Origin: Rhodamnia argentea | Lineage: Eukaryota; Streptophyta; Magnoliopsida; Myrtales; Myrtaceae | Direction of reading: 5' to 3' | DNA: 64,000 bases | NCBI RefSeq assembly: GCF_020921035.1 | Contig: NC_063151.1 | Span: forward strand, 32,680,934 to 32,744,933 | Part shown: piece after piece, positions 56-63,600 of the stretch | How positions within the stretch are numbered: position 1 is the stretch's first letter | How the letters are laid out: the number at the start of each line of letters is the position of its first letter | Notes under the pieces: generated by a model | Told to the model about the DNA's origin: nothing | What the model saw: the letters and a program-made list of their open reading frames with translations, nothing else | The model's database searches: none | Position numbers and translations under genes: made by a program

Positions 56-3000
56 TTAAGCATCGACAACTTTCTTGCTCAACGAAGAATTCCGACCCCT
101 GAACCCAACTACGCTTAATTTGCCAGATTTGCTTTGCGTTTGTTTCCTCCCAGAAGAGGACGTTTTGGCGGACTTACCAACAGCGGAAGGCCTCATCACC
201 TTTGAAATCTTAACTGCCCTTGACGGTTTGGTCGAGGATGATGTTTTCACAGCTTTTGTTCCAACGGTTGTCCTTCCAGAAACTTGCGAGGATGCCGCCT
301 TAGTGCGAGAATTAGAAGATTTTGCGGCTGCTGATTTGCCCTTGTTTCTCTGATCCGATACCTTACTCGATTTGGTGTTCTTCCCCTTGTGTTCGCTTAT
401 TCTTGCCCTAGCTATGTCCCTGCGGACATTGTCCACAGTAAGAGCTTCCAAGCTCTCATTCTTCCTGATTGCTTCTTCTATTCGAGTGGCCAAAGCAAGG
501 TCCTTTTTCGCAATCAAGCTTGTCACTTTTCCTGTAGAAAGAAAAAAAAATGGGTTGTTTAAATGCATATTTGAGCTCAATAAGTAGCCGACCCATGCCA
601 TCGCTGTCAGTATCTAAAAGTGGAAAATTAGCTCCTTAATATCATCTTTATGATTATAGGATACATGCATAAGCAAACAAAACTTTCCAACAATGACTCG
701 ACCAGCTCTCCAAGCAAACCTTCTGCCTCAAATGTAATTGTGTCAGGTACAAGAGCATGATGTACTTGAGGTAGAGCTGACTACAGGAGAGTGAATAAGG
801 TTAATAGACTCTACATAAGCAACCGCCACCCACCTTTTGCACCCATTCGAGCAGTTCTTCCAGTGCGATGAAGGTAGTCAATCTAAAAGTCAAGAGAGAG
901 CGTTAGTTTCTCTCTGTGTGTGCATGTGCACGCAGAGAGAGAGAGAGAGAGAGAGAGAGTGCGCTTACAGAGTTCAGTGGGAAATCAAACATGATGACAT
1001 GATCTACATCCAAATCCAGTCCCCTAGCAGCCAAATCTGTGCAGACCAATGTCGGGCAATCTCCATCTTCATTCTTAAATTTCTTCAAATTTTCGACTCT
1101 GATATTGGCAGAGAATACTACTTATAAGCATTAAAACCTAGAGCTTCAAAATGACTATGGAAAATCAGAAGAAGACAGGCAAGCTATAGTGGAGTTACTA
1201 GTGATTGAACACATGCACGGGCACTTAAACGGATATCCATGAACAATATAAATCAGATTTCTAGGCGCTCTGTGATCACAGTTCTCATACAACAACTTTA
1301 AAGTTAACGAAAAAGGAAAAAAAAAAAAAAACAATCAATCATCATTTGAAGGCTGCAAGTAGAAAAAGGACAAGGGGTCTACTCATCGTTAACTTACCTT
1401 TGCTCAGCCGGCACTTCTCCGTGGTAGTTGACAGTAGAGATTTGGTTTTCATGGAGAAAATGATCCACAGCACGACTAGAATTCAGAGTATTACAAAACA
1501 CCATCACTTTGTTTCCCTTTGCCAAGCTAGGCTCAAGAACCTGCCTCCATGTAAGAACGAAATCAAAGTGAGACATCCATGTGTCCTCATTCCCACATTG
1601 AGTCACTAGTTAATTTACTCTTTCCACGTTTGATGTAATGAGTTGGACGTTTCTAATATAATGGGTTTTGAAGTGTTTGCAGCCAGAAGCTAATTAATAA
1701 AAATAACCAGACAGGTGATCACAAGGGAAGCTCATTTATACCAAAAAGGAAACTTCAGAAGTTCAACCCAACTTGTTTAATTCAGAAAGACCAGTTGGAA
1801 TACGATAACTGATATGCGAGTAGAGTGGTGCATATCTCAAACACCACATATCACCAGATTCTTTTCTTGCTGTAACATAACGCCCAGGTAAGTTAATTAT
1901 GCACTCTGCACAATAAAATATTCCCAGTCTGATTTCAGGCAAGTCTTTCAAAAAATTTCCATCCTGGTAAAAGATGAATCCTGTCTGATGCAACAACTCA
2001 CTTCCACAACACACAGAAAGTAATTTATTAATATCAGGATCAAACACTTGCACATACTGCCTCTTCTCACATAAGCAGACCCCATTCCCTTTTCATCTCA
2101 GAGAGTGAACAAGATTGATAAAGAAAGGAGTCACCAGCAACCTAAATCAACACAATGCACATAAAAGGCTTATTGAACCAAATTTGAGAATGACATAGTG
2201 AATGCGAATATAAGTTCAGATAGTCCATCAAGAATTCATGTATACCAGTGATATGGAAACATGTGAAATCAGCAGACTAGCTGTGGGATATCTAAAGTAG
2301 ACCTCTAAGAGGAAAAACTGAGGAGTGCAATAGATATGGACCTGTAGCAAGGATTCGAGCTTGTTTTCAGATCCCGAAATTTTAATGAAGTCATGGCGAG
2401 CAGAAGCAATTTTCTTATGCAGTGTAGATGTACGTAAATGTGCTATTCCTTGAAACTCTTCATCAACCAGCTTCTGCACAGCCTGCAAAACTTACAGCAC
2501 TCAGCTCTGACACTTTTTTGGACAGAATCAGTCCAACGAAAGAAAGTGAACACTTGTCCCAATAACAGATGTGGATTCCAATGTTCATAACACAATGGAA
2601 ATAAGCCTCCAAATTGAAAATAAACAAATACTGTCAAAATAATGCTTTTAGGAACATCTTCAAAGAATAAACCAACTCATCAAACAGAAATATGATTTTT
2701 TCACATATTGAACCACAACGTGAAATTTTTGGGAACACCTTCACAAACAGACCAATCAAATTGAGCATAAACAGTGACATTTTCCTAAGTAAACTGATAT
2801 GGGAATTGAAGCAGTAATCAAATCAAGAGTCTCAAGAATGTTTCTACAAGTTCAGTAGCAACGATGCTATCAAAAGAATGAGGGATAGAAGAAGATGATA
2901 GCGACTAAAGGTCATCAGAATTCATTGCAAACTGCATGATAAGAGTACAATTCATTCCCTGCACTAAGCATACAACAGACCAAGATCTGTTAAAGTTTTC

Positions 3001-4813
3001 GATGACTCGACAGAATTGGTAGGATTAAACAATTCAATACACTCTATGCATATGACGACTCCACAAACAAAAACAAAAAAAGCCTAGAGTTTGAGTCTCT
3101 TAAACAATGAAAGACAGTGATGCAGTTGATTCTGCACTCCCGCCCCCAAAAAAACAAAGAAAAAAACAATAAAAAACCTTCAGAAGCAAAAACAGGTGAG
3201 GTGACCATAAAAAAGGATGTGTACCTTAGTCATTGTGGCAGTTACCAAAACAGTCTGAAATCTCAGGCCATCCGATTTTAGGGCTCGATTTTTCAGTGGA
3301 CCAAGGAACTTACGAATGTCAGGACCAAAGCCACGATCAAACATAGTATCTGCTTCATCCAAAACCTTAAAAAAAGAAGCTCAATTAATCATGAACTACA
3401 TTTTCTTTTTGAATTCTCGGATGATTGTGGATCCACATCCTAAATATGAACCTTCAACAAAAATAACAATTACGATAAAGAGAGAAATGAATGGCATAAT
3501 CCAATACAACGCAAAACTAACCAAGTACTTAAGGTCACCGTACACCAAGTTCCCTTCTTCGACGTGCTGGAGAAGCCTGCCAGGAGTACCCACTACCATG
3601 TCGATCGGGTTATTCAAGGAATCTTCTTGCGGCCTTATCCGTCCACCACCACTCACCATAGTGCACCTGAATCGCGCATGATGGCTTATAGACTTGGCCA
3701 CTCGGAAGACCTGTCCAACAAATCAATTCAAACCAATTAACAGAAGTGAATACATGAAGTTAGTACGAAGTTACAGCAGCAAGTGAAGAACTACCTGCTC
3801 AGATAGCTCGCGAGTGGGGCAAAGAACCACCGCTCGAGGTCGCCGAGGCTTCATCAACTTCCCATAAAGTTCCTCATCCCTTCTCAGCAACTACAACATA
3901 AAGCTATGAAATTGATATTTCTCGCTCCAAACACACAGATCAACATATAGGCAGTATTTACAACTTGCGTGTGCGTTTTAAGCACATAGAAAAACCACAA
4001 AGAAGCCGAACCAAATGATAACCCAGCCTCAAATCGGGAAAGCAGGTAAAGGCTCGGTCCATCAAATGAAAAAAAATTGGATCCTTGAATTAGCCTAATG
4101 CCAACAAACACTCCTCCAAGTCGAAACAAACGACCCAACTCACATTTTCAAAGGGTTTATTCAAATCTAACCACACTGGCAAACAAAACAGCACCAAATT
4201 CGACTTAATCATGAAGGATATCCACAGCTAAGCACAAGTAAGCGAAATATACCTGAACAAGAGGCAACAAGTAAGCAAGAGTTTTGCCAGAGCCAGTGTG
4301 AGAGCCCAAAACCACACACTTTCTGTCCAAAACGGCAGGAATCCCCAAGCACTGAATCTCAGTGGGGACTTCAATCGCAAGCTCTCTCACAGCCCCCATC
4401 ACCTCCTCGCTCAGCCCCAGCTCCTCGAAACTCCCCACCATCGCCGCCTTCTTCTTCTTCTCCCCCTTCACCTCAAAAGCTTCTTCCTTTGGGCTCCTCG
4501 TCATTCCACTCCTGCTTTTGGTTTCTGGGGTACCACTCTGCTGTGGCTTTGGAGCGTCCTTCAAGTGCCTCAGCCTCAGCCTCTCGAGAAGTATCGTGTG
4601 CTTCATGGGCTGCATCGCCGCGTCCGACTCCATGCTCGCCGGCGCCTCGGCGGCGGCGGCGTAGCACATGGACCTGAGCTTGAGCCTCGCCAGCGACGCC
4701 GTCGCCGCGGGTGGTGACAGTCTGATGAGGCGCCTGGCGGAGGAGAGGCGAGACGGACGGAGGAGGTTGGAGGAGAGAGAGAGGGATAAGATTGCTCGAC
4801 CCGTGCTCCCCAT
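56..4813 (-). CDS. RH39: DEAD-box RNA helicase, RH39-type (plastid)
   Basis: ATP-dependent RNA helicase. Arabidopsis RH39 acts in chloroplast 23S rRNA processing, so a plastid rRNA role is inferred. Nine coding exons (reverse order): 4253-4813, 3795-3890, 3522-3710, 3225-3365, 2342-2482, 1398-1540, 969-1098, 834-882, 56-531; together 641 aa, close to the family length. Residues 1-60 are rich in Ser, Arg and Leu with few acids, like a transit peptide. Motif I is SHTGSGKT (Lys177), Ia PTREL, Ib TPGR, II DEAD (285-288), III TAT, V ARGLD (448-452), [10 protein letters not shown] (472-479), so both RecA lobes look active. The last 130 residues are a basic Ser/Lys/Arg tail. An in-frame ATG at 4906 has no stop before 4813 but would add an Arg-rich leader ahead of the targeting-like segment, so 4813 was chosen. 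The intron after exon 7 starts with a long CT repeat. A decayed tandem copy lies just upstream. Confidence 0.93.
934..958 (+). repeat. (GA)n microsatellite in RH39 intron 7
   Basis: About 25 bases of alternating GA on the plus strand. On the transcribed strand this is a CT run that begins about 10 bases after the 5' splice site at 968. It is one of nine such donor-adjacent CT tracts in the window. Confidence 0.9.
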
Positions 4814-6103
4814 AATTCGCCGTCGTCTCCGGCGGCGTAATGGAAGTTCGCGTGAACCTTGTTCTCGCGCCCAGCAACGGAAATGGGCACACGCGCGCAC
4901 CCACAATCTCCTTCTTCGCGACTCTCGACGGTGGACGACGATGGTGAAATCTCCCGCGTGGATAATGTCCGTGCTCGGGTCTCGCTCCAGTTCATCTCGG
5001 GTTTAGTCTTAAACCCTCAAGATCCATTTTGCCTACCAAAGATTCTCGTGCAACGTGTAATTGGGTCCTCGACTTTTCTTTCTTTTCGCAATCGACTCCC
5101 TAAAGTACAAGTACAGTACAGGAAGAGAGGGAACCCGTATGCATACGAATTAAAAAATATACACCTTTCAAATACGTAAAATAAGCAGATTATTTAGCAT
5201 TTTACAAAATTGGATCATTCTAAAAAAAAATTAATTCTAACCAATGCTGGATGAAAAATCATTGGAATTTAAATATGATTTGCGGATCGGTTAAGAAATC
5301 GTTCAATCATAAGATAATTATGATGAAAATTTTAGTTTAATTCGTTCACTACATAAGAATGCATTGTTTTCTCAGTTGGCAAGAATCCCATCACCTTCGG
5401 AAAAAATGCTGGCAAATCTTCTAGTCAACGCAGGTTTTTTCAACTAGATGCTCCAAAAGATCCATCCCGGCCAAAGTTCCGGCCCAAATTTGACTAGATA
5501 AGCTGACATGTAATGTATCAACCTTTGCATTGCCCCAAAGTATTTTGTACCGATATTGATCATACTCTTAATTTTGCATTCCTTGAAATATGATGCAATG
5601 TTTTTTCTCTCATTTTCAACTTGATTAGTCAAATTTGTAAATAAGTTTTCGTGCATCAAAATCAAGTTCTAAGCTTTGGTTTCAGTATTTCATGTTCATA
5701 TTCTATTCCATGAATTCCTCTCGAAAATTGATACTTGATTTTCTAATTATCATCATGAAGTTAGGAAATCGATTCATTAGAAACCCATATATCTTCTGGA
5801 TCAACAATGCTAGATGCACATGTATGACAAGCTTCAACTTCTAACAATCATGAATGTCAAACAGTCTGTCGTCACAAACATAAAACCACATGCGAAGAAA
5901 GCACAACTAAAACTGGTAACCTCAGCATGGACATACTATGTTAGATGATACGCCTCAAATTTCGGCAAAGCACAGGCCAGTGGCGACCAACGCCTACAAA
6001 GAACAAGCACGCCCGCATGCATCGTGAAATAACATCTTGAACCCTGTGACGGTATGTTGGCTAAGCCTATGTACAAACTACAAAGCTAGACCGAATGAGA
6101 TGA
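4814..6103. other. Spacer between RH39 and its tandem paralogue
   Basis: About 1.3 kb. It holds the RH39 promoter and 5' UTR next to 4813, with GC-rich sequence to about 5000, then AT-rich DNA. No coding sequence or transposon ends were recognised here. The paralogue's 3' UTR should occupy its right edge. Confidence 0.5.
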
Positions 6104-8212
6104 TCAAGAAGCCAAATGAAAGAACCCTACAGCATCCGCCATTTTCTTCCTCAAGGCATCTTGAGATTCAATCAGATAGAGTGCTTCTTTCAGGTCGATT
6201 TCCAGCAGCATTGCAGCCACTTTACCAGCTCGATCATGCTCCAGACGCTCCACAGCATGTTTTTCTAGTATCTGGTATTTGTATTGCACGACAGCACAAA
6301 AAAATCAGACGGAAAAAAAATGCGGCTCATTGGTACTTGTATGAAACAAATATCAGGTTTTTCCAATCTTGTATCCTAGTCAAATTACACGCATAGATTT
6401 CTAGATTCTGAAAATTGCCTCCGGTCGCGAGGTACCTTATTGTTGGGATTTTTAGTGCAGATTTGATCGGTCAATTAGCTATCTTGTCATTGTCAACCAG
6501 TTAGTCAGGATATTGTCTGCATGCAGAACACGTTAAGAGGGTGAAGCCTAGAGGGTGTTTGGTTAATTTAACCGAAGTATACTCAAGCTTATGCGCTAAC
6601 AGTTTAGCTTGAAGTTAGAAGCCTAACGGGGCAGTCAGATTGCGGGTGTTTAAGTTGTTATGATATCAGGATAGGTCAACATACCTTCGAGATAGGTGAA
6701 ATAACTAGAACCGCTTGAAATTGCTGAGCATCAGATTCAACAGCAAAGTTCTTCAAGTGGCTCGAAATCTTTTGAATTTTGGGAAGCAAGCCAGCATCTA
6801 ACATGATATCTGCCTCATCCAAAACCTAAGGAAAATTTATCCCATCATTCAGCATAATGCGAACCAACATGCAATTGAGACTTCACAGTAACAACAGAGA
6901 GTGAAAACATCCATTCTGATTACAAAGAAATGCACATACCAAGTACTTGACTGCACTGGTCATAACATCTCCTTCTTCAATTTGCTGAAGGACCTCTTCA
7001 GGGGTTCCAACCAACAACCCAATTGGGGCGTTCAGTGAACCTCCCTTATCTTCTGATCCATCACCACCGCATTTTTCACTTGATTTTACTTTTGCACAAC
7101 TGGTGATGAAACTTGCCATACGAAACACCTATACGCCCTATGAGATTAGATCTAGGACTAGAGCATAATAGGAGGTGAAAAAGAAAATGCAATCAGTGTC
7201 ACAAGCTAGAGCAGAAAAGGAGGACCTTGTCACATGATTCGTCCGAAGAACACAATAGGATGGCCCTCGGGGAGTCACGCTCGATTCCGAACAATTGCGA
7301 ATCCCGTCTCAGCATCTACTGAATCAAGCAAAAAGAGAGAGCCAGTTCTTACATTCTACAATGAAGAGAGCGTGATGGCTCCGATCAAAGTTTGTAACTC
7401 CAGTGATATGGTAATGGGCAACAGGAGCTCTTAAATAAGCAGTTCCATAAACTAACTCCCCAAGGGGTGGCAATTCATGTCGAGACATGAGAACATAACA
7501 TGGCATGAAAAACCCGAGTATGGTACAACAACTTGAAACTACTGCCGAAGCTCACGCTCTGACCCTGCCTTTCAATTGAAATCAGCTTCTCATCATAGCG
7601 GATGAAAAGTTATTTCAGCAAGGACAGCGCAATGACGCGAACTACCGACACGAGCACGAGCGCGACCATGATGACACGTCTCGAACGGTGAACGAAGAAG
7701 AGTACCTGAACGAGAGGCAACAAGTAAGCCAGAGTCCTGCCCGACCCGGAAGGAGAGCTCAGGACCACACTCTGCCCCTTCAAGATCGCGGGAATCCCAA
7801 CGCACTGAATCTCGCTCGGCACCAAGACGCCCATCTCTTCGGCCGCCTCCACCACCTCTCCGCTCAGCCCCAGCGGCCCCAAGCCCGAGAGGACCTCCTC
7901 GTCGCCACTCCTCTCTCCGGAAGGCGGCGGATGCGTCGGGGGCGCCTCGCTCAGTGGGGGTTTGGGAGAGCCTCTGAGTTGTCTAAGCCTGAAGCTTTCG
8001 AGAATCATGGAGTCTCGCCTGGAGTTGGAGTCGGACTCGGATGGTTTCGGCGGAGTCTGCTCATCGTCGGTGGGGGCGGGGGTGGCGGTGGATAGAGGCT
8101 TAATGGGTTGCGAGGTCTCGGCGGTCGGAGGTGATGTGGATGAGCGAAGCAAAGGAGGAAGAAGGTTCGAGCAGAGAGGTCGAACGGTTCTGCTAACGCT
8201 TCTAATGGCCAT
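6104..8212 (-). CDS. RH39-like pseudo-helicase with C-terminal MLLE (PABC)-like domain
   Basis: Five exons: 7706-8212, 7226-7315, 6940-7128, 6685-6825, 6104-6271; 364 aa with no stop or frameshift. Exons 3 and 4 have exactly the lengths of RH39 exons 3 and 4 (189 and 141 nt), and residues 70-169 align with RH39, so it is a tandem duplicate. Helicase chemistry looks lost: motif I has Arg159 in place of the Walker Lys, the Ia position reads SSDES instead of PTREL, Ib is TPEE instead of TPGR, and III is ISP. DEAD (265-268) is kept. There is no RecA2 lobe. Instead the last exon (310-364) carries [10 protein letters not shown] at 326-335 and [15 protein letters not shown], closely like the MLLE domain of poly(A)-binding proteins, which binds PAM2 peptides. 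A role as an RNA/PABP-pathway scaffold is inference. The exon 4-5 join (intron 6272-6684) is the least certain; the donor GTCCTCC after exon 2 is also weak. The N-terminus could be a plastid transit peptide. Confidence 0.68.
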
Positions 8213-9721: not shown

Positions 9722-12006
9722 CTATTTGAGGATGAGATCAGATCCCGTGTAGTACTCTTGCTTCAAGACACCGATGTAAGGCAAGTTCCTGTATAGCTCG
9801 GCATAATCCATTCCATATCCCACCACAAAATAATCCGGACACTGCCCAAAAAAACAGAGGATCACATCGACATTCTAGGTCCGTGTTCGATTTGTAAGCT
9901 GCAAACACATAAGAACCTATCGAGAAAAATTAATGAAAAGAATGTAAAACAAGGGGATGTTACCAAGATTATTGGCACTAAAATAATTTAGTATCACAAT
10001 TTGGTGTTCGCTTGGTTCAGAAATGCACTTGACCAAAAGAAAGACACTCGAAAAACTTATTGAGGGGAGAATGAATGATCAGGTTGCAACTTGCAAGGAA
10101 GGATCCCTTCCAAGTAATCAAAACAACCTAAAGCAAATCGACATCCAATGGACGGCACATAACCTTAATATAGTGAAGGAGAATGCAAGCCTTCTTTGCT
10201 AAACCAATTTACAGACAAAGCACAAGAACAAAGCAGCATCCTATCCAGTGCACAACCTCGAAATAAACTAGATGGCTGAAGGAAAAAGAAGAAGGTTGAT
10301 CAACAAATCTCATGAACCAGGCATGGAAAGCTGGTCAAATATATAACTGACAAATGGAGCAACGCTTACTAAAGGTAAAGAACAATCTGCAACTCTAGTC
10401 AACTTCTTCCTCATTTACAAACTTGTATAAGCTACAAAACATGTATTTATGATCTATAGTAACTAAATGACATTACCAAAGTAAGTAGCTCACACTTTTC
10501 TCATAGGGGATTTTAACCTTCCCAGCCAGAATATCTTGGTACACCTAAGAGAGGTGAACTGAACTAGCTAATTTGTCTCATCTTACCTCTTCCAAATTCT
10601 TGTCATTGTAATAGTTGGACAACACAAAGATATAACAAGACAGTTATGCAGAGAAAACTTTCTTAGTCTTCAACAAAAGAATTGCAAGGACCCGACAGAG
10701 AGAGAGAGAGAGAGAGACAGAGACAGAGAGAGAGAACCTCAAATCCACGGTAAAATTTTCCATCACCCACCAGCTGAAAATGAACCTTTCGCCTCACTGA
10801 TTTATCAAGAAAAGCACAAACTGAAATCGATGATGCTCCTTTCGACTTTAAGTGGCCAATAAGGCAGGACAAGGTGTTCCCCGTATCAACGATGTCCTCA
10901 ACCTGATAAAAATGATTTTCGGAGACATTAGCGAGCTTCATATCTGCAGTCCAGATCAGAAAATCACCAGTGAAGTCTGCCAACATGACTATTTCTATAT
11001 CAAAGAACCCAGTCTTGTTATAAGAAGAAAGTTGCACAAACATTTCGCTTTATCAGGAGGCAACACTCGTGCAAGAAGTTCCATAAATGTAGAATCGTCA
11101 TTGACATAGATGTCTATGAATGAGCCCATGTCAAGACATGTAATTATAAAAGGACGCCATTTTTAATATGGTGACATTCCAGCAAAACGACTGTTCTATT
11201 AGAAAAAGACTCACTTCGGAAACCTCATGAGATATCTCCACCAGTATTACCAACCTACAAAAATGACCTAAGCACCTGTCAGAGGCTTTTGACAAATCAA
11301 CATCAGACTATCAAAAATGGGCAGCCACAACTCCATAAGATGTACCTTCTCTTGGGTAGATTATGCAATCGCCCTGGTACTTTGCCAAGTCAAGCAAAAT
11401 TCAATAAGCCATACATGAGACATGATGAGCAGGTTCTAAAACTGGAGAAGTGCCAGTCTATGCCAACAACAAGATTATTCGGACTCGACTCCTAGTCAAT
11501 TTCCCAGCTTTGAGGATTCTTGATCTAATAGTAAAACGTCGCAGACAATAGTAGCAGTGCTCATATTATGATTCAGAATCACAGAAATAGAAACTAAGTA
11601 TTCTGGAGCATCTCATGCACAAGCATTTGTCACAACTTCGAATCACAAGAAGCAGCTTGCCGGTTCACTCTTCAACACTCAAAAGATGAAAACTTGAAAG
11701 CACGTCAATTACCAAGATGACATGCCTGCCTCGAACGTCCACCTTCAAGTCAAGGGAGACGGCGGGGGCCCCACTGGACGCCGTGCCGGAGCCGTAGGAA
11801 TCGGAGCGGACGAAATCGACGAACGCGGGCATCTCCACCTTCCTCACCAGGTCGGCCACGAAGAGGAAAGCGCCGGTGGCGACGGCGACGAAGACCGGAG
11901 GCGGGGTCGCGGCTTTGAAGTCGGAAGTGATCTCGGAGGCGAGCTCGGACACCCGGAGCGAAATCTGGTCCTGGGTCCACAGGACTCGCTCCATGTGAGA
12001 GTCCAT
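9722..12006 (-). CDS. HGPT: Hypoxanthine-guanine phosphoribosyltransferase
   Basis: Purine salvage enzyme: joins hypoxanthine or guanine to PRPP to give IMP or GMP, cytosolic. Three exons: 11713-12006, 10738-10902, 9722-9841; 192 aa, against about 188 aa in Arabidopsis. The PRPP-binding loop [10 protein letters not shown] sits at 99-108 directly after the exon 1-2 junction (HVIL|VEDIV). The C-terminus has the family signature [20 protein letters not shown] followed by YIGVL. All introns are phase 0 with GT..AG. The start at 12006 ([10 protein letters not shown]) was chosen because it gives the family length; an upstream in-frame ATG at 12054 would add 16 residues. Intron 2 begins with a long CT/CTGT tract. 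A Mutator-type foldback element lies 318 bases upstream of the ATG. It forms a divergent pair with the MRNIP-like gene. Confidence 0.95.
10696..10735 (+). repeat. GA/GACA microsatellite at HGPRT intron 2 donor
   Basis: Forty bases of GA with two GACA steps. On the transcript it is CT-rich and starts right after the GT of the 5' splice site at 10737. Confidence 0.9.
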
Positions 12007-12323
12007 TTTTGAGTCAATTGCTGGTGGATAATGACGATGAAGAGGGACGCGCAAGAGCAGACACTGGCGTTCGACTTCGACTATGAGCTACTTTGCTTTC
12101 CTGGAGGATCCGCGAATCGAAAGATTAATACCCAAAAATTACTTCAAAAATCATATCAAAAAATTCTCCGTCCGATTCTTTTCCTTTTGTGGTTAGCCTC
12201 GGAGTACACCTAGTCAATTGCCAAAATTGATACGTTAGAACTTTCTTTATATCCTCACATGTCCAATTTTTTTCGATAAACTGACCATACATGTAAATCC
12301 GGTCGTCCATGTTATTATTTGTA

Positions 12324-14737: not shown

Positions 14738-16396
14738 ATGGCGACGACGATCTTCATCGCTCTCCAATGTTGCCAATGCGCCACAATGCAGGTCTCTGTC
14801 CCTGTCTCTGCCTCTGTCTTTCTCTCTTTCTCTTTCGGAGCACTAATGCGTCGTCCCAATGTCGTCGGATCGGCAGGTGAAGCAGCAGAAGAAGAGCAGC
14901 AGCAAGTGGACGTGCGTCGTCTGCAACCAGAAGCAGTCCGTAAGGAAGGTCTTCGCTCAGGGCTTCATGGCCAAGGACGTCCGCAAGTTCGTCCAGTCCT
15001 TCAACATGTCGCGCCTGTCCTCCGATCTCGAAGCCCTAGATCCACCGCTCGAAGGAGGAGGAGGAGGAGGAGGAGGAGCGGTCCACGATCGTGCGGGCAG
15101 TGGTGACTGGAAGAAGCTGAAGAGAAGCGATTGGGGCGAGTATCTCGATGTCGAGCAAGAAATGCGCGCCGAAGAAGAAGAAGGTCCCTATTTATTTAGC
15201 TGAGACCATTTGTCCATTCGCATCCCTTACAAAATATAATCTCAATTCTGATATAGAATCAAGAGCGACATTATTGCCCGAACTGTTGAAGTGCGATGTT
15301 TGGACATGTCTTAGTATGATTACTCTGGGACCGTGCGGACTGGATATTGGGTAGTATTGTTGTTCGTCTCTCACGTGATGAATTTTCTGGGTAGTATTGC
15401 AGAGGATGATGGGGGGATGAAGATTGTGACGGAAATTCCGAAAGAAATTCTCAAGAAGCCCAAACTGAACGTCTCCTCTTGTCAATCGCCTGGTTCAAAG
15501 GGCGGCAAGCTCTTTACACCATCGTTCACCAAGAGAAATGTCAGAAAACAGACTACTTTTCCAGGTAAGATCTGGCTTTGCATTCATCTAGCTGGAAGAG
15601 TCTTCTCTATTAGTTAATTGCAGAACTTTAATTAGGAAGACACACAATTCTCCATATGATATGTGATGACATTTGAGAAAAATTAATCGTTCTAGCAGTT
15701 AATTTCGATCCAGAGTTCTATTCTCGGAGCAAATCCGAGTGAAGCCCTGATTTGATCATCAAGGAGATGCTAATAGTAATTGAGTACCTTGTACCCTCAA
15801 ATATGCAAATTCAATGGGCATCAGCAACTTTCTTGTTAGCAAATCGTAGTTTGCTCAAACGAATCTGCAGTTATTGCTGAAGCTGGATACCTTTTCCGAT
15901 TAGTTGAGGAGTCTCGAGTGCCATTTGCCTACTTAAATTGTTAGCAGACCGTGAGAGGAGATTGCAGCTATTTGCTAACATCCATGCCTTTAGGATTATG
16001 AAAAACAACCAATTTGACTGCCCTATGACCTTCTCAGCTTGTTCACGGAAGATGAAGCCAAAATAGGTATGGGGACTAGTCATGGCAAATTCCTAACCTA
16101 AGCATATCTGACTTTTATTTGCAGATGAAGAACCGAAGAAGAACCAAAATGTGTTAGCTTTCAGGACTTCCGGTCGGACGAATTCCAAAGGAGTAAAGGA
16201 CATCGACCCAGTGATCAGTCAATCAACTGCAGTCACAAGGAGTACCACCAAATGGAGCAATTACATGTCACAAGATGAAGATACCTTGCAGGTAGGCATG
16301 TATAAAGATGACGTGGATCGATTTAGTAATGGTGTCTTGGAATCTAAAACAAATGATCAGAAGGTAGAGGACGATATTCACCCAGATTTTATGTGA
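14738..16396 (+). CDS. MRN complex-interacting protein (MRNIP) homologue
   Basis: Four exons: 14738-14791, 14877-15183, 15403-15564, 16125-16396; 264 aa. The N-terminal zinc ribbon has CCQC at 11-14 and CVVC at 31-34, followed by QSVRKVFAQGFMAKDVRKFV, the conserved MRNIP N-terminal block. The rest is acidic and low complexity (poly-Gly near 80, EEEE at the exon 2 end), with a short conserved KWSNY-like segment (about residues 214-218) in exon 4. In animals MRNIP binds MRE11-RAD50-NBS1 and aids double-strand-break signalling; the plant role is by homology only. Every junction keeps frame: EEEE|DDGG and TTFP|DEEPKK. Intron 1 is only 85 bases and almost pure pyrimidine. An ATG at 14859 lies inside intron 1 and gives a shorter frame without the first CxxC, so 14738 is preferred. 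Confidence 0.85.
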
Positions 16397-52436: not shown

Positions 52437-54428
52437 TCATTTGTCTTTCACCAGTTGTGCCTCAAAACCCCCTTCTGGTCGTTTTACAAGGTTGTAGGGC
52501 ATGTGAGTCCCTAAGAGCTTATCCCAAATGGAGAAGAATGGCTGAGAATAATTGTACTTAGTGCCTTGAAGCTGATGATGGATGTCATGATAAGCAGTGT
52601 TGTTCCTGAAGAATACATGAAAGATATTGCCAGGCAACCACAGCCCACAGTGATCATCAACTGTTTTAACCACCGCAAAGCAAAAGAAATACACAGCGGT
52701 TCTTGCGGTCATCCCAGACACAAGGAAAGAGATCGCCCCGCCAAAAGTGTCGAGCAAGAGACCCTCCAGTGGATGATTATACAGAGCACCAATTGCATAA
52801 GGGACGACCAGCCTATGATGCTGCGAGTGGACATGGCGGTACAGGAATTTGTTCTGATGCATATAGCGGTGCACAAAGTACTGCCACGTGTCCATGACCA
52901 GCATTGCAACTGAAAACTGCAATATTTGGATAGGTATCGAGGGTTGAACTGTCACTCCTGATAGATTGGCTTTCGATGTCAACTGCATTCAGATGGAAAC
53001 AGAGTGTTATTTTACGCTAAACATCAACCTCTCTCATGACAACGATAAACATGTGGGTATAGGTATGCAAAACTCTGTCGCAGAACTTGCCAATGTTAAA
53101 CTGCTCAACCATACGTCAAACTTGACCCAAAAAAAAAAAACGTACAGTCAAACAAGGATTTCCTGTTGATAATCGAAATGCTGCAAACAAGTACCAACAA
53201 TTTCGACAACATTAGTCATACAACACAACTGTAAAGGAAAGAACTCAACTGAAATGAGGTTGATGAAAACTAGGACTTGGGTCCATCATTGGAAACACTC
53301 AATCAATGTCATATCAACCTTAGATTATTTGCACAAGGGCAACAGGGCAAGCACATGGATCTTTTCTGCAACTCCACTTAATTTCCAACTCAGATTTAAA
53401 TCCAATTCTACAAGATGGTAATCAGTATCCATGATTTCAGTCACATTACGACGTTAGTTTACATCTTCATTTCCATTAAAGGTGATCATTTCTAACAAGT
53501 GCTGGTGTGTTTGCACCCTCCTGAATGGACAAGAAGGAATGCATTTGTGCATATGTTTCCTGTAGTCAACTCTTTAACAGTTATAATTTCTAACTTAAAC
53601 CACTAAGTTCTTCTAAGTCCAATTAACTCCATGAGATTGGTATCCTAACACACTGCCAGGTGATATTTATTCTGCTGTATTGTCGATTTTGAGCAACAAC
53701 ACATGATTGAAGGAAGTCTTCCTCCTCCTTCTAGGAGGGCTAGAACTGATACCTTGCTTATTGAAATAAATGGTGAAAATAAGCAAATGGAAGCCACTTT
53801 TAACTTTCATCTACATCAATCGGAAGAATCCAAAAGGCCGAGAATCCCCCCGGCCCCTGCCCCCAACAGCAAAAAGAATATTTAACAGATTAAATCTCCC
53901 CTATTGAAGGAAGCTAAATTTCGCAAGCTAGCTCCCATGTACCCAAGTTTCTTAACCGCCCAAGAAATAATCTAAACATATCCTTCTTCTCCAGTTATCA
54001 CGTATTCTCGACATGGAACTTAAAGCACTAGATTCTCCTATCTGATATGAATTTATTGTAGCTCATTGCTTCAACTGTAGCAATTAGGTTCTCTAAAACT
54101 AAAATACAAGAAGACCAGAAAAGTCCAAGAAACTTGTGATATTAATTCCAAGACTTAGACTACGGCTGACAAATGATTTTCAAATTAAAATACTAACCAC
54201 AAAGAGCCCCTGGGCAACAGTGGCTTGCACAAGTTGTTGAAGCAATACACCTTTCACAACCATCGTAAGCGGTACCGAATTCTTCTCTTCCTCCTCTTTT
54301 CTAGTATGTAACCGGTAATTGTCCAGGGGAGGCAAAAGTTGATAGAATCCTGCATACACCCAATAGACCACAATTGGGGCAAATGTGCCCATTGCTTCAT
54401 CACTTACATACCCTTCCCAAAGTACCAT
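52437..54428 (-). CDS. SBH: Sphinganine C-4 hydroxylase (sphingoid base hydroxylase)
   Basis: ER-membrane di-iron enzyme that adds the C-4 hydroxyl of phytosphingosine-type long-chain bases. Two coding exons: 54198-54428 and 52437-52982 (phase 0 intron of 1215 bp, GLFV|LTSK); 258 aa, against about 260 in Arabidopsis SBH1/2. Histidine clusters of the fatty-acid-hydroxylase superfamily are complete: HRYMH (115-119), HSQHH (129-133) and HDIHH (209-213). Hydrophobic segments lie near residues 12-32, 60-77, 92-110 and 155-182. The start (MVLWEGYVSDEAMG) matches the family; the in-frame ATG at 54482 lies in the 5' UTR. A 5' UTR intron is likely: donor at 55107 (GATAG|GTAAGCC) and acceptor next to 54512 (TTCTAG|G). 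Its first bases lead into a CT-rich tract. It is divergent from CstF64. Confidence 0.95.
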
Positions 54429-57627: not shown

Positions 57628-60600
57628 CCTCCTTGATTCGATTTATCGTGAATCGGCAAAAAATAGGGGGAAAATCTCGACTTGTGGCCACGCGAACTGC
57701 GATTTCCTCTTAAAGACTGAATATTTTCTTCTGGATGCAGTTCTTCTTTATAATGAATTGAGGCTTTGACCACAGCGGTGGATTGTGGAAGTAATTGTTT
57801 GTTCTTTTTTTGTGTTTTTCTCAGTTGGAAACATTCCCTATGACGCCACCGAGGAGCAGCTTAAAGAAATCTGTCAGGAGGTCGGTCCTGTCGTGTCTTT
57901 CAGGTGTGTATCACTTCGATGAGATTTCGGTAGCGATAAGCTTGCTCTAGCGTTCATGCTTCACTACCAAGTTTGCTGATTATATAGAAACTTGTGGTGG
58001 TCCTTATGGAGCTTTCATTGGCTTCTCCTTGAATATTTTTCTAGTACCATGTGTGATGTTAAGTATAGGCGCATCCTTAATTGAGATGTAAGTGTATTTG
58101 CTTTACTTGCGATGTGTATTCTTGGAATGCGAAAAAGCTACATGGAGTGGGCGGCATTCTTCTCAGATGATGCTCTGGTTGCATTTGTTTCCAAGAACAA
58201 AAAAAGTTGGTTTTAGCTTGTCGGATATTTGTTCAATTGGCTGTGAGTTCCAGAATTGAAAAGTGAAAATTTTGAAGACTGAAAATATGCCAACAGTTAA
58301 ACTTTTGGGAATTCAATGCAAGAATGTGGTGTCTTCAATGACTGCTAGAGGTACTTCTTACAACACTTTTCTGCTATCAGCAGTGTTTTTAAACCCAGAC
58401 CATACTGGTCGGTTGAACTAGTTAGACCGGGAACTGGACCGCGGTCCGGTTCGGTTTTTATTTAATAACTGTGTTGGTGAAGAACTGGTGGTTTTCACCT
58501 GGTTCAACCAGTACATCCGCTGGACTACTCACCATTTGGACCCGTTCTTTAGACCTAAAAAAATATTGCACGGGCTGTAACAAGGGGAATCAATCCCGAC
58601 CCAAGAATATATGCCACCTCCCAAATTAACTGAGTTGGGTGTCATTAATGAATAATGGCGTCAATAATTATTTAAATCACCTTGTTTAGTTGTGAATCAT
58701 GATAAAGATCAATCCAGTGGTTCTGCCATTTCAACCGTTTGACCTGCAAATAGGAAGCTAGACCGGTTTTTCAAGCAGTCTGGGTTTATAAACACTGGTG
58801 TTAGGCTAAACTTTGGCAAGTAATGAGGCATCCCAGAGGCTTAAAGTAAATTTTACTCTTTAGCTCTCCTTCCAACTCATCTTTTTTCAACATGATTGAT
58901 TTCACTATGGATAAGCATTTTCACTCCAATTTGTTTGCACTATTTATCCTTGCGTGTTTCAGGTTGGTAATTGACAGAGAAACTGGAAAGCCAAAAGGTT
59001 ACGGTTTCTGTGAGTACAAGGATGAGGAAACAGCTTTGAGTGCTCGTCGAAACCTTCAGGGTTATGAGATCAATGGGAGGCAACTACGGGTGGATTTTGC
59101 TGAAAATGATAAAGGATCTGATAGAAATCGGGAGCAGGTTACTGTCACTGAACTCTTGAATTTTTGTATGGATACTTTCTTTTGTCGATTGTTTCATCAC
59201 CATGACAACATGCTACAGGCTCATCTGACATGTGCAGCAATGCATCGTAGTTTCTTTTGACGTAACTACTGTATGAGATATCTGTACAAGACGTTAGTAT
59301 CGTATTGAGAAGTGCCGTTTATGGGTTATTTGCGGAACATAAACTGATCTTGCAGTAGGAATAATGTGTTTAATTATGCAGTGCAACCCCGAAAATTGTA
59401 CGTGCCTTTGAATTTCGTTAGACTGCTTTCTGGTAGTTTGTTTGCAGAAGTGGATTGGTTTCCTTAGTCATACTTGGTGAGGCGAAATATATCCTCTTCA
59501 CTATTTATAAGCTAATTCAAACATTGTGTTTGCTATCTATTCCTCCTTTTATGGTGTCTGAATTGTTTCCTGTTGTTATGGATTTCAGCTAACGAGATTT
59601 GGGTAATGAAAAACAAATTTTCTCCTTTCCTCTATTGAGGATGAGATGGGAGGAATTCATGTTTGGTGGTTTGGATACGTATATGATGGCTTTATGGTGT
59701 CTGAATTGTTTTCGGTAATATGGATGTTGTTATGATGTTATGAGGTGGGAGTTGGAAGGGGTTTCAGCAATTGAGATTTTGGTAATCAAAAACAAATATT
59801 CTCGTCTTTTTCTTCAAGGTTAAGATGGGGGAACTTACTATTGGTGGTTTGGATAGGTAAATAATGGCTTTATACGATCTAGTAGGAAGGTGAAATTTTT
59901 CGGTGGTCATGCAGGTTGAAAAGGACTATGAGTTCTACTTTTTATTATCACTTAGGAGACCGTGGGATAAATTTGAGCACCCACAACATACATAGATGTA
60001 TAACCAGGCAAAAATGAAATTCTTCTTTGCTGTTTCATACTATTTTTTGGATTCTTTTCCATATGTTGACTTATCTTTGTTGGCTTCCCTGTTTACAGGG
60101 TGAATTTAGAGATTCTTCGACTGTTATGTATGATAAAGGATCAAGAAACTAGTGTTAACTGAAAGCATGGTACATAAATGAATTAGGGCCAATCTTTGAA
60201 CTAAGTTAAGTTTTAGAAGATCTGATTTTATGCAGGGCAATAACCTTGATATGGAATTTGAGAAGAAAATGATATGGAATGGTCCAAAAATATCATGGAC
60301 TTCACCAGAGTTGAGACCCCCCATGGGTTCTCTTTACTGTCATAGTTGGCTGACTTGGTAAATGATGTGAGCAAAATATCGATGCAGAAAAAGAGACAAA
60401 AAGAGTCATTTCGTTAAGAGTCATTCCAATGTATCTCATCTTCATGGCTCCCTCCCAACCCCTTCATCGACTTGAATACATTGGTTATTTTGTGTAAATT
60501 TTGGTGGAGTATGAAGATTATCTATTTATGGCTTTTCTTTCAGGGCCGTGGTGGGCCTGGATTGTCTTCAAGTACCGGTCAGTTTTCTCTGTTCTATGAG

Positions 60601-63600
60601 CTGTTTTTGTTCAGTCATCTTAGGCTACCTGAATAGAATCTTAAAATAGATTTGTTTTTCCCCCAATTTCTATATGCAGATCCTGCAAGGCAAGTAGGGG
60701 GCCCTGCCATCCATGGAGAGTCTGTTAATCAGCCCATTGGTCTCCATATTGCTATAACTGCTGCGGCAGCCATGGCGGGAGCTCTGGGTGGTGCCCAGGT
60801 CAGCATGCTACCAAATCAAAATGGTCTTCAGAGTCAATCAGCTCTAACAAATGATCCATTAACCCTTCAACTGGCCAAAATGTCAAGGAGCCAACTTAAT
60901 GAAGTTATATCTGAGCTCAAAGTAAGCACATGCAGAAAAGCTGATCATCTTCTCTTTGTTTGATCATGGATTGGTCCATCAGAAACTTCTGCTTTGATTC
61001 AGGCAATGGCTACTCGTAGTAAGGAATCTGCAAGGCAGCTGCTGCTATCAAACCCACAATTGTGTAAAGCTCTTTTTCAGGTACTTGACAGTACTTTGAA
61101 TTCTCCTTTCTTATCATAGTTTATACCATAGAATCTCCAGAAAGAGTTCTTATCCTGGTCATTCTTTTATATGATGCCTATATCCACACACAAAATCTTT
61201 TCCTGGGCCTACTTTAGAACCTTTTATATGCCTGGCAATTATTATTCTCACTTTCTTCCTATTTGATGAATCTTGCAAGAGCCCTTTTGGGGTTCTTCCA
61301 ACTTCACTAATTTATTAAGACTGATTATGCCGCAAAAATTACATTTTTTGTGGAAGAAGGAACATGAGCTTGGTGATATGAAAGGTTTTATGGACACTTT
61401 TATTACTCTTACTGGCCTTAAATGCTTTTTTATGTTATTGGAGATCTAAAATGTTCCAGCCTGAGGTTATCTTGTTTTATAGTTTTCAATCTTTTTTTTT
61501 AGGAGAAGTTAAAACTACATTTTCCTTTTTGTGGATAAGATGTTGATTGTGTATAGAGGGGATCGTTGAAGTTCTAGCATTGCCTACTTTCGCCTTTGTT
61601 CAGAGCCAGTTTATTATGATGTGCTTCTATGTCAATATTCATGAGCTTTTTCATCACTTGATTACTGGTTGTCCTGAGTTTGCAATATTGATTTACTTTT
61701 TCTTTTATTGGGGAATCATGTAGGCAGAAATAATGCTTGGATTGGTGACTCCACAAATGGTTAGTTTCTCACCTGCTTTCCTGTTGGGGGTTAGTTCATG
61801 TTATTACATGTCAAAGTCAGCATCTTGTTTGAAATTTGCAGTTGCATATGCAAAGTATTAGACAGGGTCCTACTCAACCTTCAGAGCCAGCAGCCAGAGA
61901 TGGTCATATGATTCAGCAGCAAGCAATTCAAACACTTTCAGGGCTGCCCCCACTTGGACAGAGGGTGCAACAACCTGGATTGATGCCCAAACTGCAGCAT
62001 GGACAAGTTTCTTCAGTGCCTCAAGGTTCTCATGCACAAAACCAAATATCTGGGTTATCACAACTCGTGATGCAACCTCAAATCCAATTTCCACAAGTTA
62101 ACTATCCACAGGGGATGTTCACGGGCCCGTCAGGAGCTTCCACCAGCTTACCTATCACAACACGAGGTCCCGTGCCGAATGCTGCTTCCGTTACTCAGCA
62201 AATGCACTCCTTTTCATCTCAACAACCAAGAATGGTTGGTGCTGCAGATTTAGCTCATAACTTGCAGGTGGGTCTTTCACATGGAGCAGCACTCCTCCTA
62301 TTTTGCCTCATCCTTCCACATCAGATGTCAGGGATCAGGTTTTAAAACATTTCGCTGTTTCCAAAATCACAAATCTAAGAATCAGTTGATGAATACTGTT
62401 AGTTAAAACTAGGGAACTTTACTATGTTTTGAGGCCGAATCTCTAGCAGCATTATAGAAGAACTGATGAATCGAATTTGGGCAGTTATAATGGGCATTTG
62501 GTGAGCATACATTACATTCCGGAGTCTGCAGTGATTTATTTTCAGAGAGTGTGGATAATTAAATCTATCAAATTTTACAAAATTTCGTAGAGAATCGATT
62601 TAATGTTGGACTCTCGAAATCTATGTCGTGCGTGGGTCTTTTTTCTGTACTACTTCTCCGTTGATCTACACATTGCAGTTTAGCAAGTGGCAAAAGTTTA
62701 ACTAGGTTAAGTTCTTGTTTGTTAACATGTTATGCTTAGAAACTTTGAAGTGCTTGAAGAATCTTTGGATCATGTCATAAATCAAACCTCGCGAATTCTT
62801 CTAATTCTTTGCTTTTGCAGAAAAAGAACTGCTTTGTAATGTTGATAGTCTCTCTTCTATAAAATCTTATCATTTCTTCGTATAAGCAATTTCTTCTGGG
62901 AGATGAATCTTATCATTTCTTTGTATAAGCAATTTCTTCTGTCTAATGTCCTTTGAAATAACAGCCTGGCCCCTCAATATCATCAGGCATTTCAGGTAGA
63001 ATTGGCGGTGAGCTTTCTGAACCAAGCAATCACCCTTCTAAGCTGATGAGAGTAGAAGATGTCAGGGCCAGCTCTTTCTCTTTGGGGGGTCCGAATAATG
63101 CTGGGGGACTTGGGGCACCTCCCTTCGGTCCAGTTTCTCTTAATCCGGCTCCCCAAATGGAACTGCAGCACCCTGAAAGGCAAGCATCTCAGGTAATTTC
63201 TTTTCGATGATACTTGCAAAGTCCAATGGGTTGCAGTGATACAACTTTGTATTGTTATCTGGCTGCACCTTCCAAGATAAAATTATCTGTTTTGAGATCT
63301 TTATATCTATGCATGGGAAGGTTTCTAGTTTCAACTCTGACATGGAATTTTTTTGTTTATATTTTGCCGTGCTTTCCTGATTCTCTGTGCTCTGAAGCTT
63401 AATAGAGGATATTGAACCAAATGAAGTCCTATCTGCCTAATTCTTTTGTTTTTTCCAATGACAGGTTTCGTCAAATGCGGAGTCTGTGTTGCTTCAGCAA
63501 GTCATGAGCTTAACAGCAGAACAGTTGAGTTCTCTGCCGCCAGAACAGAGGGAACAAGTGCTTCAACTGCAACAAATGCTTCGGCGTGATCAGAACCAGG

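Follow-up and report, generated by a model that had tools for sequence, protein, structure and literature searches.

A DEAD-box helicase/MLLE chimera encoded in the DNA of Rhodamnia argentea by a tandem helicase copy with a partial MLLE exon

The window, the whole stretch of 64,000 nucleotides from Rhodamnia argentea that was analysed here, contains two helicase genes arranged head to tail on the minus strand (Table 1). Copy 1 encodes a protein of 641 residues with DEAD and Helicase_C domains (its joins from exon 6 onward were set by eye), which we take to be RH39-like, after the Arabidopsis protein. Copy 2 carries exons homologous to exons 1-4 of copy 1 and a last exon of a different kind. 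Several other genes lie in the window. A phosphoribosyltransferase domain (PF00156, E = 3.5e-10) is encoded at 11665-12087 (-), upstream of copy 2 and in the same orientation, and the gene probably extends, as judged by eye, down to about 9740. The remaining genes include an MRN-interacting protein frame (PF15749, E = 3.9e-16; 14847-15203, +), multicopper oxidase frames (PF00394 and PF07731; 28606-29864, +), a fatty acid hydroxylase (PF04116, E = 6.7e-26; 52437-52988, -) and, at 58850-62345 (+), an RRM (PF00076; 58850-59260) followed by a Gln/Pro-rich frame that has no Pfam match; this last gene is presumably cleavage stimulation factor CstF64.

Table 1. Features of the tandem helicase copies, in window coordinates (a slash marks a splice junction)
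Feature	Position	Strand	Description
Copy 2, exon 1	7706-8212	-	Ser/Thr/Arg-rich leader, Q-motif region (VPSEIQ), altered Walker A (SPSGSGRT)
Copy 2, intron 1 tandem acceptor CAGTAG	7316-7321	-	Frame kept by the distal AG; in-frame TAG by the proximal AG
Copy 2, exon 2	7226-7315	-	Motif Ia PTRELSEQ replaced by SSDESCDK; both ends phase 0
Copy 2, intron 2	7129-7225	-	Donor AAG/GTCCTC, weak-looking
Copy 2, exon 3	6940-7128	-	Motif Ib GTPGR replaced by GTPEE
Copy 2, exon 4	6685-6825	-	DEAD retained, motif III TAT replaced by ISP; donor AAG/GTATGT homologous in position to that of copy 1 exon 4
Copy 2, intron 4	6272-6684	-	Homology between copies 1 and 2 ends inside
Copy 2, exon 5	6104-6271	-	Partial MLLE (PF00658 positions 21-63 of 66), followed by the stop codon
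Copy 1	59-4813	-	RH39-like DEAD-box helicase, complete with both lobes; lies head to tail with copy 2, on its downstream side

At the DNA level, copy 2 is a helicase/MLLE chimera. Its five minus-strand exons, which run from 8212 to 6104 and measure 507, 90, 189, 141 and 168 nt, are each divisible by three, and all of its introns are in phase 0. An earlier note on this DNA had read 6271-6104 (minus strand) as a 55-residue MLLE-like peptide in frame with four upstream helicase exons; translation gives that peptide, ending in a stop, and splicing in silico joins the five exons into an open frame of 364 codons plus the stop. The 364-residue product matches DEAD (PF00270, residues 134-294, E = 1e-22, 81.1 bits against a gathering threshold of 26) and MLLE (PF00658, residues 315-357, E = 1.8e-9, 37.9 bits against 27). 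Helicase_C, which covers motifs IV-VI, is found by Pfam in copy 1 and is absent from the copy 2 product, in agreement with the note's description of a tandem helicase copy with an MLLE instead of lobe 2. The acceptor of exon 5 is preceded by a T-rich tract, and the 50 or so bases before it hold no competing AG; both other reading frames of the exon contain stops. A GTCC donor like that of intron 2 also occurs in copy 1, 3' of its exon 5.

The two copies have intron positions and phases in common through exon 4, and their exon 4 donors lie at the homologous place (AAG/GTACAC in copy 1, AAG/GTATGT in copy 2). A homologous donor followed by different exons suggests that the switch of partner took place in or at intron 4. 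Between the copies, intron 4 shows no significant similarity (best E = 0.12), and no alignment of any of the four intron pairs improves on E = 0.05. The proteins are 46% identical over 301 aligned codons, with a pS of 0.69 (dS about 1.9, which is near saturation and makes dN/dS rough), a pN of 0.343 (dN 0.46) and a bootstrap range for pN/pS of 0.43-0.58. With DDX17 as outgroup (156 columns), copy 1 alone agrees at 21 positions and copy 2 alone at 7; with DDX1 (197 columns), the counts are 27 and 14. By these counts copy 2 is the faster-evolving copy.

Copy 2 has lost most of the motifs of the helicase motor. Relative to copy 1 and two solved helicases, TGSGKT has become SGSGRT, PTREL has become SSDES, TPGR has become TPEE and TAT has become ISP. 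Only one of the five motifs I, Ia, Ib, II and III is retained (DEAD), along with the Q-motif region. Given the established roles of these motifs, their loss together with the missing lobe 2 suggests a product that has no helicase cycle and would be catalytically dead.

The Pfam comparison that the earlier note had proposed for exon 5 gives a clear match to PF00658 (E = 5.8e-11, 42.7 bits against a gathering threshold of 27). The match covers profile positions 21-63 of 66 and leaves the first 20 unmatched, so that the exon encodes a partial MLLE. It falls short of a whole domain, taken as helices 2-5 at least, since no more than the end of helix 2 can be recognised. The closest solved relative is 2dyd, a poly(A)-binding protein (PABP) that we take to be from wheat, which aligns ungapped with 24 of 44 residues identical (E = 4.4e-10). 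Wheat is named among the solved MLLEs (PMC9249222). The MLLE domains of UBR5 and HYD match exon 5 weakly (E = 0.015 and 0.016). The strength of the 2dyd match, against the far weaker ones to UBR5 and HYD, makes it most likely that the MLLE part derives from a PABP. A single-sequence AlphaFold2 model of exon 5 alone gives one helix (residues 2-54) and no bundle, and is uninformative in the absence of an alignment.

The residues that recognise the PAM2 motif can be located in an ungapped alignment of exon 5 with human PABPC1, in which K17 of exon 5 corresponds to K580. In PABPC1, the Phe pocket and its hydrogen bonds involve Q560, G563, E564, F567, G579, T582 and L586 (PMC2854688). Only G579 and L586 of these seven are retained in copy 2, the helix 2 residues being placed by extending the alignment upstream into a region with no detectable similarity; the replacements are Q560 to Pro, G563 to Lys, E564 to Ile, F567 to Lys and T582 to Ala, and the positions aligned to Q560 and G563 fall in exon 4 rather than exon 5. 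Within the set G563, E564, F567, T582 and L586, one of five is kept (L586), too few for the Phe pocket to count as conserved. In the pocket between helix 3 and helix 5, M584, L585, I588, K606 and A610 are the same as in PABPC1, E609 is Asp, and V613, L614 and H617 are changed to Phe, Phe and Ala. Phe binding is described as the single most important determinant of PAM2 recognition (PMC2854688), and MLLE1 and MLLE2 of Rrm4, which carry Ser and Arg at the Phe-pocket Gly, make no contribution to the binding of PAM2 or PAM2-like motifs (PMC9249222). PAM2 binding in the usual mode by the MLLE remnant is, on these residues, unlikely. The proposal of the earlier note that the chimera links RNP factors to PAM2 proteins is not upheld, as most of the Phe-pocket residues are replaced and the G563 position is a Lys.

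Searches around exon 5 bear on where it came from. A tblastn search with exon 5 (MLLE only) over the whole window returns the exon itself only, the next match having an E value of 0.44, and Pfam on the three minus-strand frames of 4990-6700 returns MLLE and no other match. For other PABP parts, Pfam on ten frames elsewhere in the window gives a single RRM match, at 58850-59260. The alternative raised in the earlier note, in which exon 5 is part of a separate PABP-derived pseudogene, finds no sign in the window-wide tblastn or in the minus-strand Pfam search of 4990-6700. In viral and genome contig collections, which are non-plant and silent on orthologues, none of 10 and none of 113 pattern matches, respectively, was confirmed as a relative. 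Capture by a mobile element was considered and rejected: blastn of 5000-6700 against the window gives the segment itself and one 23-base match (E = 0.32). Direct repeats of at least 14 bases are absent from 5000-6830, which contains three imperfect inverted pairs. One of these pairs, of 21 nt (6048-6068/6668-6688, 76%), flanks exon 5 and intron 4, and is probably due to chance. A helicase source for exon 5 was likewise rejected. The first codons loosely resemble, by eye, those that open exon 5 of copy 1; blastn of this part of copy 1 against 5000-6684 gives one match, with an E value of 0.66, and residues 7-50 of exon 5 are accounted for by the PABP alignment. The search for a remnant of lobe 2 in 5000-6700 gives one chance match only (E = 7.6, plus strand).

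The open frame of copy 2 can be compared with what neutral drift would leave. In simulations of 364 codons (2000 runs starting from the present sequence, with substitutions only and no indels), the median distance to the first stop is 0.019 substitutions per site, and 95% of the runs have acquired one by 0.08. An intact frame at the divergence seen between the copies argues that the copy 2 frame was under selection at the protein level for most of its history, until recently. For exon 5 by itself, a 2dyd fragment was back-translated and left to drift neutrally, and 808 of 3000 runs remain stop-free at the same divergence; 18 of these 808 match exon 5 in mean BLOSUM62 and 68 in the number of positive-scoring changes, which is the weaker measure of the two, the starting point being 2dyd and not the true donor, so that conservative change may partly predate the capture. 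Because stop-free drift is not rare in this test, constraint on exon 5 alone is weakly shown.

Whether the full product is made at present depends on a feature absent from the earlier note, namely the intron 1 acceptor, TTCAGTAG/ATG. The 364-residue frame is obtained only with the distal AG; use of the proximal CAG places an in-frame TAG after codon 169. Skipping of exon 2, which begins and ends in phase 0, would also preserve the frame. Among Arabidopsis SR and SR-related genes tabulated in one study, upstream TAG use is predicted at 7-25% for four TAG-then-CAG acceptors, two CAG-CAG rows have ESTs for the downstream site only (8 and 12), and CAGTAG is not among the cases given (PMC2375911). 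As the upstream TAG is predicted to be the minor site in these TAG-then-CAG acceptors, a first-placed CAG should beat TAG, and by this analogy the proximal CAG of CAGTAG is probably favoured. Among 5,031 moss NAGNAG sites, 2,695 are spliced at the upstream site only, 2,041 at the downstream site only and 295 at both, and no CAGTAG case is given with these counts (PMC3095350). NAGNAG splicing that removes a UAG is recorded in CFTR (PMC2951375). Because of the CAGTAG acceptor, present expression of the full-length copy 2 product is doubtful. The CAGTAG site (7316-7321, -) could also act as a switch that determines whether the gene gives a 169-residue stub or its full product.

The leader of copy 2 resembles a plastid-type leader, judged by composition alone. 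Its first 45 residues include 14 Ser/Thr, 5 Lys/Arg and 1 acidic residue; those of copy 1 include 12 Ser/Thr, 8 Lys/Arg and no acidic residue. A plastid location would put cytosolic PAM2 proteins beyond the reach of the copy 2 product.

The explanation that we favour, with a probability of roughly 0.55, is that copy 2 is an old RH39-type tandem duplicate whose 3' exons were swapped for a PABP MLLE exon, and which is non-catalytic and possibly now decaying. The gene for an RH39-type plastid DEAD-box helicase would have been duplicated head to tail long ago. The 3' exons from intron 4 on would then have been lost, with a single terminal MLLE exon from a PABP in their place, presumably by recombination in intron 4. 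The resulting product would consist of a first RecA-like lobe that keeps the Q-motif and DEAD but lacks an intact Walker A, Ia, Ib, III and lobe 2, and the MLLE piece would most likely be a helical tail in which the helix 3/helix 5 groove is at best partly formed. Such a protein, if made, would most likely have no enzymatic role and work alongside RH39 as an organelle-targeted scaffold or competitor.

Quite possible, although we place less trust in it, is that copy 2 was long a coding chimera and is now a pseudogene or nearly so, giving mostly TAG-bearing transcripts that are degraded or yield the 169-residue stub. The CAGTAG acceptor, where the first-placed CAG should win over TAG on the Arabidopsis comparison (PMC2375911), speaks for such decay, as do the weak-looking intron 2 donor and the eroded motifs. 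However, the 364 codons are free of stops and frameshifts, whereas the neutral median to a stop is 0.019 substitutions per site; moreover, distal-AG use or exon 2 skipping preserves the frame, the removal of a UAG in CFTR provides a precedent (PMC2951375), and the Arabidopsis CAG-CAG rows do not favour the upstream AG (PMC2375911).

The conserved frame, the MLLE core and the five helix 3/helix 5 residues shared with PABPC1 (M584, L585, I588, K606 and A610) would also fit a working adaptor, with an MLLE tail that captures PAM2 or PAM2-like peptides and an RNA-binding RecA lobe tethered to them through it. We regard this as very unlikely: Q560, G563, E564, F567 and T582 are replaced, V613, L614 and H617 are changed, binding of the Phe is the determinant that matters most (PMC2854688), and the leader, plastid-like in composition alone, would keep the product from cytosolic PAM2 proteins. 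Least probable is that exon 5 is a separate PABP-derived fragment that happens to sit 3' of the helicase exons and does not join them by splicing. Gene fragments can be inserted anywhere, but exon 5 is on the same strand and in phase, has a T-rich tract with no rival AG nearby, and has an open frame with no ATG before the Met of the MLLE core. The window holds no more MLLE-like sequence, no other minus-strand Pfam match occurs around exon 5, and the changes in the exon relative to 2dyd are conservative.

Set beside known systems, the combination in copy 2 is a new build from known parts. RH39, represented by copy 1, has homologous exons 1-4 with like intron positions and phases; copy 2 differs from it in lacking Helicase_C, in the loss of motifs I, Ia, Ib and III, and in its added MLLE tail. 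The PABP MLLE of 2dyd is the nearest relative of that tail, over the ungapped stretch described above; unlike a PABP, copy 2 has no RRMs, reads KVAAMLLE for KVTGMLLE, leaves 20 of the 66 profile positions unmatched at the start and meets a stop soon after the match. Rrm4 of Ustilago maydis also carries MLLE on a protein other than PABP, and the Phe-pocket Gly is replaced in its MLLE1 and MLLE2 as in copy 2; in contrast to copy 2, it has three MLLEs together with RRMs, and its MLLE3 retains the Gly and binds PAM2-like motifs (PMC9249222). UBR5 and HYD likewise have an MLLE outside PABP, with the short helix 1 absent (PMC9249222), but their sequence match is weak and exon 5 is nearer to PABP.

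Besides human PABPC1, only two further kinds of MLLE protein, UBR5 and the fungal Rrm4 type, had been described according to PMC9249222 (2022). The MLLE of plant PABPs is treated in PMC4574140, in passages that do not give its exon structure. No plant MLLE-helicase protein appears in the open-licence literature among the matches listed, judged by title and the start of the abstract. A plant helicase-derived gene with an MLLE-derived last exon would be an additional build of MLLE protein. It is a tentative and rather improbable further step that a plant lineage made and kept a new MLLE-bearing protein through the exchange of exons in a tandem duplicate, in which the MLLE-derived tail on a non-catalytic organellar RecA lobe would have a new ligand other than PAM2. 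The exchange of a terminal exon in a tandem copy that sits beside its intact parent would make the origin, decay and possible reuse of such a gene traceable, and the chimera, if translated, would test what an MLLE is capable of when it lacks the PAM2 Phe pocket.
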